Assembly: GCA_025927495.1 (NCBI GenBank)
Contig: JAICLH010000010.1
Coordinates: 1-34,832, forward strand
Length of the DNA stretch: 34,832 nucleotides
DNA from: Gemmatimonadaceae bacterium
GTDB taxonomy: Bacteria > Gemmatimonadota > Gemmatimonadetes > Gemmatimonadales > Gemmatimonadaceae
Direction: 5' to 3'
Shown: in pieces, positions 16,847-19,951 of the stretch
Position numbering within the stretch: position 1 is the first letter of the stretch
How the letters are laid out: each line of letters begins with the position of its first letter
Program-made: the position numbers and the translations under genes
Notes under the pieces: generated by a model
The model's input: only the letters and a program-made list of their open reading frames with translations
The model's database searches: none
What the model was told of the DNA's origin: nothing

Positions 16847-17914
16847 TCAGCCGTGCCAGCGAACGCGGCGGCCTCGCACGTCGATATGCACGTAAGGATG
16901 ACTATATCTGCGGCTGGTGTACACTCCCATGCCGCCAACCAGGTCGGGGTATTCGGCTTCCACGGAATCCACGACTGCAGCCACGATCCGCGCGTCCTTC
17001 CGGTCGATGCGACCGTTCCCGTCGGCGTCGATGGCGACATCGAGCGCGTCGCCGAACTGGTGGCGGCTATCCCGCGCCGCACGGGGCACGTGCCGATTGT
17101 AGGCAGGCGTCCGGAACCCCGAGTGCAGGTCGAGCTCCACCGGGACATTGCCGGACTCGCGGCCGAGCGAGTGCGAGATCCGCTCGAGGATCAGTTCCAG
17201 CTTGTCGAACACCCGCGGGTCCATTGCCGCGTATCTGGGCCAGGTGTCCTGGCCGTCGCGCGACAGGAAGTCGCCCAGGCGCAGGTGCGCCGACAGGGGC
17301 AGGTCGATCTCGTCGGAGGTCACCTTGACGAAGCCATCGGGACGGTCGGTGGCGTCGGCGTGATGCCGTTCGCCGCGATAGAACCCAATGCGGTAGCCGT
17401 CGAGCACCGAGCCGTGCTTCTCGTCGAACGGAACGAGCACGGCCAGCGACATCCCTTCGATGACATCCTCTTGGGTGCCGTGCAGCAATGCCAGGCGATA
17501 GAAGCCGGGCTCGCTGGGCGCGATCAGCGTATCTCCTGAGTATGCGAGCGCGCTGTCCTGAAGCCGCGCATCGCCGACGCGCTCCCAGGCGTAGCGAAGC
17601 GTGAGCGTGTCGTTAGGCAACGTGATGGGGTAGTCCACGTGCTCGCCCGGTAGGGCGACCGCGAGTTTCAGTTCGCCGCTTTTGCCGAGCGCCGCGGGCG
17701 CCGGCTCCGCGCGAAGGGCTAGAGCGCCGAATGCGCTATCGACGACGACGTCCGGCGCGCCGAAGGTGCGCGGCGGGTGATACCAACCAATCACCGCCCA
17801 CGCTGAGCCAAACCAGAACGTCAAGCTGATCAGTTTTTTGAGACGGCGGCCTGCTGCAGAGGCCGCTGCGGCGACAGGGTGCCGACCATTGTCAGTCGGC
17901 CGCCCGCGACTCAC
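16847..17914 (-). CDS. M15-type peptidase with calcium-loop insert, copy 2
   Basis: Protein of 355 residues with one N-terminal membrane anchor (about 27-45, LISLTFWFGSAWAVIGW), a beta-rich middle, and a C-terminal D,D-carboxypeptidase-like M15/DUF882 domain. Zinc-site residues lie in SRHQFGDALDV (His, Asp) and YVHIDVRG (His), with SGFRTPAYNRH before them. Between the two metal motifs is DADGNGRIDRKD, a textbook EF-hand/dockerin calcium loop (D1, D3, N5, G6, I8, D12). It is a paralogue of the gene just upstream, coupled through GTGA (17914-17911). It probably trims or remodels peptidoglycan in the periplasm; substrate not known. Confidence 0.82.
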   Translation of the reverse strand: MSRGRPTDNGRHPVAAAASAAGRRLKKLISLTFWFGSAWAVIGWYHPPRTFGAPDVVVDSAFGALALRAEPAPAALGKSGELKLAVALPGEHVDYPITLPNDTLTLRYAWERVGDARLQDSALAYSGDTLIAPSEPGFYRLALLHGTQEDVIEGMSLAVLVPFDEKHGSVLDGYRIGFYRGERHHADATDRPDGFVKVTSDEIDLPLSAHLRLGDFLSRDGQDTWPRYAAMDPRVFDKLELILERISHSLGRESGNVPVELDLHSGFRTPAYNRHVPRAARDSRHQFGDALDVAIDADGNGRIDRKDARIVAAVVDSVEAEYPDLVGGMGVYTSRRYSHPYVHIDVRGRRVRWHG

Positions 17915-18903
17915 CGCGATCCCCAGCGCACGCGCTCGCCGCGCGTGTCGATGTGAACGAACGGTCCGTGCGCGCGGGTCGCATGATAGAGCCCGACGCC
18001 GCCGACCAGGTCGGGATGCGCCGCTTCGACGCGATCGACCGCCGCTCGAATGATGCGCGCGTCGCGCAGATTCACGCGTCCGTCGTGATTCAGATCGTCC
18101 ATCCGGCCAGACTCGTTATTGTCCACGAACACATCCGCCGCATCTCCGTACTGGTGCCGGCTGTCTCTCGCGCGGCCACCGCGCGCGCCCACGCCGAGTC
18201 GATTGTATTCCGGCGTCCGGAAGCCGGACATGATGGTCAGGTGCCGAACGCGAACGCCGTGCGCATTCAAGTCATCGATGACAAGCTCGAGCTTGTCGAC
18301 CAGATTCGGATTGAGCGCCAGGTACTTGGGCCACACATCTTCCTGATCGTGCGTGAGGAAGTCTCGCAGCTGAAAGTGCTCCGACACCCACGTGTCTTCG
18401 TTCTCCGGCGTCACTTCGATGAAGCCATCCGGATTGGCGTACATCGAGTCGCTAGAGGCGTGCCGTTCGTGCGGCCAAGTGCCAAGCCAATAGGCGCCAA
18501 TTTTTCCTTTTTGTTTGGCGGCGAACGGAACGAGCGAAATGAATGAGAGGGGCTGTGCGACTGCCGTGTCGTGCACGGTGTAAATGCCGGGGCGATCGAG
18601 CGCACTGTCGCCAAACAGCTCCTGCAGTGCGTCGATTCCGTACGAGGGATGCGACGGACTCACGAACAGGGCGCGCAGTTTCCCGCTGCGTCCGACGAGC
18701 GAGTCGAGAAACCAGAGGCCGGCTTTTGCCCGGAACGGCGCGCGTGCTGGAATCAGCGTGGCGCTCAGATCGCGCGATGTGACGGGAACGAGCGCGGCAT
18801 TGGCGCGCGGCGCGGCGCCAGCGGCCGCGACTAACGCGACTCCAGCGCCGACAACTCTCATGGCGCGTCCGAGGCGAAACGCGCCTGCATGTACACGGCT
18901 CAT
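17911..18903 (-). CDS. M15-type peptidase with calcium-loop insert, copy 1
   Basis: Protein of 330 residues, a signal peptide (hydrophobic VVGAGVALVAAAGAAP, cleavage near ANA) followed by a beta-rich region and a C-terminal M15/DUF882 peptidase domain with SGFRTPEYNR, SRHQYGDAADV and FVHIDTRG. The zinc motifs are interrupted by two overlapping calcium-type loops, DNNESGRMDDLN and the canonical DLNHDGRVNLRD. The middle part also aligns with copy 2 (GFIEVT and HFQLRDFLTHDQEDVWP), so this is a tandem duplication. ATG 18903 has Shine-Dalgarno GGGAGG at 18909-18914, five bases away and directly next to the candidate riboswitch, which probably controls it. Confidence 0.85.
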   Translation of the reverse strand: MSRVHAGAFRLGRAMRVVGAGVALVAAAGAAPRANAALVPVTSRDLSATLIPARAPFRAKAGLWFLDSLVGRSGKLRALFVSPSHPSYGIDALQELFGDSALDRPGIYTVHDTAVAQPLSFISLVPFAAKQKGKIGAYWLGTWPHERHASSDSMYANPDGFIEVTPENEDTWVSEHFQLRDFLTHDQEDVWPKYLALNPNLVDKLELVIDDLNAHGVRVRHLTIMSGFRTPEYNRLGVGARGGRARDSRHQYGDAADVFVDNNESGRMDDLNHDGRVNLRDARIIRAAVDRVEAAHPDLVGGVGLYHATRAHGPFVHIDTRGERVRWGSR

Positions 18904-18913
18904 CGGCGCCTCC

Positions 18914-18990
18914 CTGGCAACCAGACCAACGGCAACTACGCGGCCGTCTCTTGGCTTTGCGCGTCGGCTGCCACAGCCGACTTGCCTTTG
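18914..18990 (-). promoter_or_regulatory. Candidate c-di-GMP-I (GEMM)-like riboswitch
   Basis: The minus-strand leader of the M15 pair has the ordered parts of a class I c-di-GMP aptamer: GGCAAG (18986-18981), a strong hairpin GTCGGCTG-TGG-CAGCCGAC (18981-18963), the hallmark GCAAAGCC (18960-18953), a second imperfect stem (about 18951-18923), and the closing GGTTGCC (18922-18916). GGCAA can pair with TTGCC to form P1, which ends two bases from the GGGAGG ribosome site. GGCAAG can instead pair with the immediately preceding CTTGCC (18995-18990), a competing hairpin. Against it: the first loop is not GNRA, and the sequence before GGTTGCC is weakly conserved. A different GEMM-like RNA is possible. 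Confidence 0.55.
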
Positions 18991-18998
18991 GCAAGGAG

Positions 18999-19016
18999 CC
19001 CCCGTCAGAACGGGGG
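18999..19016 (-). other. Leader hairpin upstream of the aptamer
   Basis: CCCCCGT paired with ACGGGGG around a TCTG loop on the minus strand, 7 bp, just upstream of the candidate aptamer. The flanking CCTCCC (19019-19014) is complementary to the GGGAGG ribosome site at 18914-18909, so this element could take part in hiding or freeing it. That role is inference. Confidence 0.4.
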
Positions 19017-19099
19017 AGGAACTCTCCTAACCTTAGGGGGGACGCGCTTGGTAGGAAGGCGCAACCCGAGACTACAGGCCAACTTGACTGACCAAACGG

Positions 19100-19951
19100 T
19101 CAATAAATGTACACGGGCGTTCCGACCGGAACGATGCCGTACAGGTAGTCGATGTCTTCGTTGCGAAGTCGGACACAGCCATGGCTCGTGGCCTCGCCAA
19201 CCGACCTCGGTTCATCGGTGCCGTGCAATGCGTAGCCGTCGCCGAGATTGAGGCGATGGCCGCCGAGCGTCCCGCGATACTTGCGTTGATTGGTTCCGTA
19301 GGGCGGAACGATGATGTTCCCGGCCTCGATGATTTCGCGTCCCTCGCCGGACTCGTACGGCACTTCGCGCCCATCGCGGAATTTCTTCACCACGTCGTTG
19401 CCGTCCACTGTAATGACCGCACTGTCGCCGACCGGCACCTTCTGGCCGCGCTTGAGCAACACCACGCCCAGGCTCTTTTTGTCGGCGATCTCGAGGAAGT
19501 GCCAGTCGGGCGGCACCCACACCGGGCCGGCATCCTTGCTCTCGACCGTTAGGCGGCCGCGCGGCGTGTCGAACTTGTACTCGTCGCGTCCGTCCTGCTT
19601 CACCAGCGTCTTGCCGCTGCCGACCGCCACGCGCGTGGTGTAGAACACGCTGTCGCCTAACTTGTACCAGAGTCGGCGGTCGGCGATGCTCACCACGATG
19701 TACGGCTTGTCCGCGTCCGGCCCCGGGCTCGCCTCCGCCATCGCCCGTCGGAGCGAGTCCGCCGTCACGCCCGCGTCACGCCTGACCTGGTCCAGCAGGT
19801 CCCAGTTCCGGTTGAACACGATGCGGCTGATGTCCCGCTGGTAGCGCACCTGGAGCGTCGAATACAGAAACACCCCCGTCGCCGCGGCCGCGACGACCGC
19901 GAGACCCGCCAGGATGAACGCGCCGCGCGGAATCGAGCGAAGAACATTCAT
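19100..19951 (-). CDS. L,D-transpeptidase (YkuD family), active form
   Basis: Periplasmic L,D-transpeptidase of 283 residues anchored by one N-terminal membrane helix (about 13-31). The YkuD domain (about 85-283) has the complete catalytic signature: H243-G-T and S256-HGC259-VRLRNED, ending in TPVYIY. Such enzymes make 3-3 peptidoglycan cross-links or attach proteins to the stem peptide. A helical linker of about 50 residues with NRNWDLLDQVRRD separates anchor and enzyme. It lies 30 bases after a paralogue that has lost the catalytic residues. Transcribed with the SH3 gene; a weak TGACC/GGTCA hairpin overlaps the stop. Confidence 0.93.
   Translation of the reverse strand: MNVLRSIPRGAFILAGLAVVAAAATGVFLYSTLQVRYQRDISRIVFNRNWDLLDQVRRDAGVTADSLRRAMAEASPGPDADKPYIVVSIADRRLWYKLGDSVFYTTRVAVGSGKTLVKQDGRDEYKFDTPRGRLTVESKDAGPVWVPPDWHFLEIADKKSLGVVLLKRGQKVPVGDSAVITVDGNDVVKKFRDGREVPYESGEGREIIEAGNIIVPPYGTNQRKYRGTLGGHRLNLGDGYALHGTDEPRSVGEATSHGCVRLRNEDIDYLYGIVPVGTPVYIY

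Follow-up and report, generated by a model that had tools for sequence, protein, structure and literature searches.

A divergent c-di-GMP-I riboswitch without the P2-loop/P3-receptor clamp as a candidate translational OFF switch for tandem M15 peptidase genes in Gemmatimonadaceae

Background

c-di-GMP is a biofilm and motility signal, and to our knowledge the use of the c-di-GMP-I riboswitch class in Gemmatimonadaceae has been little studied. In the genome of a Gemmatimonadaceae bacterium (assembly GCA_025927495.1) two tandem peptidase genes follow a structured leader, and the locus raises the question of whether this leader belongs to the c-di-GMP-I class and how it might act on the genes behind it. 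A first-pass annotation had read it as a candidate for the class, perhaps a diverged or different-ligand member, naming the Rfam GEMM models and covariation across related genomes as checks. We analysed positions 1 to 34,832 of contig JAICLH010000010.1 (the window, 34,832 nucleotides) together with related genomes. A literature search for c-di-GMP-I riboswitches combined with peptidase M15 returned no paper joining them among the top-ranked results, most subscription papers falling outside its scope.

Results and discussion

The leader is a diverged match to the c-di-GMP-I class

Searching the whole window with the Rfam covariance models gave a match to RF01051 (c-di-GMP-I) on the minus strand at 18913-18996, scoring 40.6 bits where the cut-off is 35 (E 9.4e-5 over the whole window, 2.3e-6 over the whole genome). 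RF01051 was the sole Rfam family above cut-off in the whole window, and c-di-GMP-II (RF01786) was unmatched in full Rfam scans. Four other copies of c-di-GMP-I in the same genome exceed the cut-off with 65-72 bits each, so that the present leader appears as a clear but weak, diverged member; judged by its sequence, the resemblance exceeds chance. All elements named by the first-pass annotation are present on the minus strand between 18903 and 19019, and the locus is laid out as follows.

19100-19951, minus strand: L,D-transpeptidase gene (YkuD), upstream of the leader; Pfam YkuD 6.1e-24
19014-19019, minus strand: CCTCCC
18999-19016, minus strand: P0 hairpin CCCCCGU-UCUG-ACGGGGG, from folding; abuts P1
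18992-18998, minus strand: P1 5′ strand CUCCUUG, pairing with 18910-18916; invariant in both the 11-leader and the 12-leader alignment
18990-18995, minus strand: CTTGCC
18981-18995, minus strand: competing anti-P1 hairpin CUUGCC-AAA-GGCAAG, -7.4 kcal/mol; excludes P1 and the ligand pocket
18981-18986, minus strand: GGCAAG
18985-18986, minus strand: equivalents of G20 and G21
18963-18981, minus strand: P2, the strong first hairpin; its loop is not GNRA, and several of its pairs are double-changed across relatives
18957-18961, minus strand: equivalents of C44, G45, C46, A47 and A48 (core); invariant
18953-18960, minus strand: GCAAAGCC
18919-18956, minus strand: P3, the second stem, without a tetraloop receptor; double changes
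18916-18922, minus strand: GGTTGCC
18917, minus strand: C92 equivalent; invariant in alignment A3, nearly so in A1
18910-18916, minus strand: P1 3′ strand CAGGGAG, overlapping the ribosome-binding site
18909-18914, minus strand: ribosome-binding site GGGAGG, 5 bases upstream of the ATG
18903, minus strand: ATG start of peptidase gene 1
17911-18903, minus strand: M15 peptidase gene 1, 330 amino acids, Peptidase_M15_2 over the Pfam cut-off, MepK-like
16847-17914, minus strand: M15 peptidase gene 2, 355 amino acids, an overlapping paralogue

P1 embeds the ribosome-binding site and competes with a local hairpin

In the Vc2 structure G14 pairs with C93 and forms the base triple A95-G14-C93 (PMC3764141), which fixes the register of P1 in the leader as CUCCUUG:CAGGGAG, seven uninterrupted pairs. 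This P1 is kept in all 12 leaders of the kind described below with a single U-A/U-G change, and its 3′ strand contains five of the six bases of GGGAGG. The first-pass annotation had instead drawn P1 as GGCAA:TTGCC, two bases from GGGAGG; the gap is one base, and we rejected this pairing because it is broken in the relatives L102-L105, L106 and L107 (GGCAC, GGCAG, UUACC) and incompatible with P3. The alternative pairing that it proposed, CUUGCC:GGCAAG, is real but confined to six leaders, those of the own genus and L106, while the general form in the remaining leaders is of CCUU:AAGG type. An anti-P1 hairpin pairing the P1 5′ strand with the G20/G21 segment is found at the same place in 12 of 12 leaders (-3.2 to -7.4 kcal/mol), whereas ordinary copies have weaker equivalents (mean -2.5). 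The CCTCCC of the earlier drawing is likewise present but not strictly conserved, reading CCTTCC in two relatives, and was dropped as a conserved anti-ribosome-site. P0 adjoins P1 in each of the 11 leaders whose upstream sequence is long enough, and differs in sequence between genera.

Strong matches to the diverged leader lie before M15 genes in five genera

Across five Gemmatimonadaceae genera, 12 genomes have this leader before orthologous M15 peptidase genes, the relatives in public records being Gemmatimonadaceae MAGs. It lies upstream of the orthologues of peptidase 1 in the five other genomes of the own genus, and leaders of the same kind are found upstream of orthologues in four further genera. 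A clade model (R1) built from 11 leaders gave 12 strong matches (72-103 bits) in 179 family genomes, every one directly upstream of an M15 gene. An R1 search of 395 genomes from across the phylum gave no strong match outside Gemmatimonadaceae; those of the next-ranked matches (about 59 bits and below) that were read are GNRA-loop aptamers upstream of other genes. c-di-GMP-I riboswitches as a class occur in 52 of 74 Gemmatimonadaceae genomes, and ordinary members also stand upstream of M15 genes in other Gemmatimonadaceae (L032, L068, L069, L079, L134, L148 and L166). The M15 gene tree shows more than one label change with its deep forks open, and fits one or several origins of the riboswitch association.

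Certain M15 leaders have departed from this pattern. In G164, a genome of the own genus (L089/L108), the leader core reads GGAAAGCC instead of GCAAAGCC and GGCAA is missing; this aptamer, upstream of an M15 frame that is otherwise open and is truncated where the contig stops, is apparently decayed. The M15 leaders L132 (2880-2989) and L139 (upstream of 3001) keep CUCCCC...UUGCCAGGGAGG ends and have lost the GCAAAGCC core, and may be either decayed riboswitches or another structured leader. The M15 gene of L133, on a contig labelled Candidatus Kuenenia stuttgartiensis, is nested inside Gemmatimonadaceae on the tree and probably reflects a mislabelled or mixed bin. Read from their translations, the genes behind the four ordinary copies of the present genome (L001-L004) encode a protease resembling subtilisin, a short ORF product resembling a lipoprotein, a large, beta-helix-like surface protein and a protein with Ig-like repeats, which would together form an exported-protein regulon.

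Compensatory changes and an invariant pocket

In the 12-leader alignment used for pair counts, which was fitted to the structure, 98.0 % of cells pair, compared with 25-47 % in slid controls. Changes on both sides occur in 8 of 29 pairs across the 12 leaders against an average of 2.6 in shuffles (0 of 500 as high), a test that yields no probability for related sequences and is for that reason weighed jointly with the slid controls. The covariation picture from the MAFFT alignment A3 matches that from the structure-fitted alignment, and RNAalifold, unprompted, yields a nearly identical fold with P1 included. Over 31 aptamers, ordinary copies included, 13 pairs are double-changed; between diverged and ordinary family copies, for example, C-G becomes A-U at columns 62-107 and G-C at columns 33-46. 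Several P2 pairs are changed on both sides across relatives, and P3 shows double changes both relative to ordinary copies of the same family and within the clade. P1 lacks covariation inside the clade, one of its strands being the ribosome-binding site. As far as comparative sequence can tell, the three-way junction of P1, P2 and P3 is supported by compensatory changes, with P1 alone invariant within the clade. Together with the covariance-model match, these changes in homologous leaders support the earlier proposal of a diverged c-di-GMP-I-class leader before the tandem peptidase pair.

The positions that line the ligand pocket of known aptamers are held fixed. The equivalents of G20, G21-C46, C22-G45, A47, C44-G83, C92 and G14-C93 are all invariant in the clade. 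GG stands at G20/G21 in every M15-clade row of A3 and in every row of A1. The long-range C44-G83 pair is C-G in 31 of 31 aptamers, the present leader and four clade members among them, and both columns are invariant in A3.

Neither structural type describes the leader

Among the tertiary interactions of c-di-GMP-I aptamers, the docking of the P2 loop into P3 has been described as the most notable (PMC3764141). Two types are distinguished, type I with a GNRA loop and a receptor and type II with a GYRA loop and no receptor (PMC11218506). The present leader has neither the P2 GNRA tetraloop nor the P3 receptor of type I. The receptor is absent as expected of type II, yet the GYRA loop is missing too, the loop being UGG (or GUGGC), in agreement with the first-pass annotation, which had seen that it is not GNRA. 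Eleven of the 12 M15-clade leaders lack both GNRA loop and receptor, with loops of 3-11 bases (UGG, GCGAAA, GCGAAG, CGGAACAC, UUCG, CUCG and longer forms); only the relative G176 has a GCGA loop. Among the aptamers read, about 45 combine a receptor of CUA type with a loop reading GAAA or UAAA and about 22 have a GCGA, GUGA, GUAA or GAGA loop without receptor, counts that come from best-scoring loci and not from a census, with two loops and a few receptor calls corrected by eye. Since G176 keeps GCGA, the simplest reading of these sequences would be that the clade descends from type II and has been freed of the loop constraint.

A MepK-like peptidase and its paralogue beside an L,D-transpeptidase gene

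Peptidase 1 is an M15 zinc peptidase above the Pfam cut-offs for both Peptidase_M15_2 and M15_3 (PF05951/PF08291; 34.4 vs 27 and 27.1 vs 23.2 bits), and its zinc-ligand-like motif of H250, D257 and H317 is invariant in 30 relatives. The nearest NCBIfam model is MepK (NF053624), at 31.6 vs 185 bits far below the equivalog cut-off, and we class the protein from its sequence as related to MepK and not as an equivalog. An AlphaFold model (pLDDT 77.7) has its best fold matches among M15/VanY/LdcB enzymes, with marginal E-values. As the start of peptidase 2 overlaps the stop of peptidase 1 (GTGA), the two genes are probably translationally coupled.

The YkuD gene is also directly upstream in several relatives. 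MepK is described as an LD-specific endopeptidase that becomes necessary when cross-linking is left to L,D-transpeptidases (PMC12729407), which makes it plausible, by analogy, that the L,D-transpeptidase and the MepK-like peptidase here are a maker and cutter pair; the M15 peptidase would then act on wall cross-links as MepK does. A conserved palindrome, TTGACC-GTTT-GGTCAGTCAA, lies across the YkuD stop codon (about 19080-19105, minus strand) in the leaders of the genus and is a possible operator or weak terminator.

A proposed c-di-GMP-responsive OFF switch

Our preferred reading, to which we assign a probability of about two in three, is that this divergent c-di-GMP-I riboswitch without a P2-loop/P3-receptor clamp responds to c-di-GMP as a translational OFF switch, acting on the gene of the MepK-like M15 peptidase and on the second M15 gene that overlaps it. 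It builds on the class membership, structure, invariant pocket, gene association and P1/ribosome-binding-site overlap apparent in the aligned leaders, and from these we infer c-di-GMP binding, the OFF direction and control at the level of translation. When ligand is absent the P1 5′ strand would pair locally with the G20/G21 segment in the anti-P1 hairpin, leaving the pocket unformed and the ribosome-binding site more open. Binding of c-di-GMP between G20, A47 and C92 would stabilise the junction and the 7-bp P1, whose 3′ strand would then hide five of the six ribosome-binding-site bases and reduce translation of both M15 genes. Vc2 is a translational OFF switch dependent on P1 stability (PMC9262584), and the placement of the ribosome-binding site inside P1 leads directly to the prediction of an OFF switch. 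The fold with aptamer plus P1 lies 1.0 to 3.8 kcal/mol from the best unconstrained fold in 11 leaders, by energies that ignore tertiary contacts and ligand, a gap small enough that ligand binding could tip the fold. In several leaders the unliganded ribosome-binding site is predicted to be unpaired to a low or moderate degree, and genus g12 has a local GGGA:UCCC pairing that covers it as well, which makes the dynamic range uncertain. The missing loop clamp could weaken ligand binding here; in the Cd1 riboswitch, binding was lost when the loop was mutated (PMC9262584). No transcription terminator or sigma-70 promoter was found in the leader on the gene strand, although Gemmatimonadota promoters may differ from the sigma-70 type.

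The OFF direction is likely and not certain because several unliganded folds cover part of the ribosome-binding site. That cover is extensive enough in several leaders to suggest the converse, an ON switch in which ligand undoes a repressed alternative fold and so opens up the ribosome-binding site, ON switching being known in such GEMM-I RNAs as pilM (PMC9262584). We consider this unlikely, since the canonical-register P1 contains the ribosome-binding site in 12 of 12 leaders and each of these also has an anti-P1 hairpin that would free it.

Loss of the loop clamp, together with the leaders of L132, L139 and G164 that keep the 3′ end and have lost the core, could also indicate a vestigial aptamer without useful dinucleotide binding, which would cover the ribosome-binding site independently of ligand or in a temperature-sensitive way. 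This too seems improbable to us. The pocket is invariant over five genera while the loops of P2 and the tip of P3 are free to vary, the pattern expected if ligand recognition is still selected.

A different ligand, for example 3′,3′-cGAMP, might be considered as the periphery is atypical and few bases separate cGAMP-type GEMM-I aptamers from the others. The genome encodes seven GGDEF regions, four of which have GG[DE]EF and the Asp that is replaced in Hypr cGAMP synthases. cGAMP goes with the change G20A (PMC6274999), whereas all clade members have G at position 20, which fits c-di-GMP; a switch of ligand is thus very improbable. The first-pass annotation was right to suggest a diverged leader, and its other suggestion, a different ligand, finds no support in the sequence at G20 or in the ordinary GGDEF enzymes of the genome. 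Elsewhere, the GEMM-I aptamers L183, L184 and L185 (genus g2) and L190 (genus g65) read AAGAGCAAACC or CUAGCACACC and have A at the G20-equivalent position, a cGAMP-type signature; the ORFs downstream of the g2 aptamers resemble STAS-domain proteins.

That the resemblance is due to chance, or that the strong GC hairpin P0 serves as terminator for the L,D-transpeptidase gene before it, is scarcely credible given the covariance-model match, conservation and covariation, and the minus strand carries no terminator call there.

Comparison with known systems

More tentatively, and at slightly below even odds, the clade may represent a third structural type of c-di-GMP-I riboswitch, binding c-di-GMP without tetraloop/receptor docking, with the 7-bp P1 that doubles as ribosome-binding site compensating, and through which c-di-GMP would throttle cutters of peptidoglycan cross-links beside an L,D-transpeptidase gene. 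A natural lineage without P2/P3 docking but with an intact pocket is a ready test of what docking is for, and the OFF switch, if true, would tie c-di-GMP by riboswitch directly to peptidoglycan-cutting enzymes.

With type I aptamers (Vc2, Bc1; RF01051) the leader shares the three-way junction, the G20/A47/C92 pocket, the C44-G83 contact and the G14-C93 pair next to the ligand, and its output would, as in the Vc2 OFF switch, be controlled by P1. It differs from them in having no GNRA loop or receptor, in its P0 hairpin and strong anti-P1 hairpin, and in a P1 of seven uninterrupted pairs with the ribosome-binding site embedded. It resembles type II in a P3 without receptor and through the GCGA loop of the relative G176, but 11 leaders show no tetraloop constraint. 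The GEMM-Ib aptamers for 3′,3′-cGAMP have the same overall architecture, with A at position 20 where the clade has G. The ordinary M15 leaders of the family share with the clade the gene family, the riboswitch class and a GAGG directly after the aptamer; unlike the present clade, they combine a receptor with a loop reading GAAA or UAAA, and on the gene tree their M15 genes fall into a lineage of their own.
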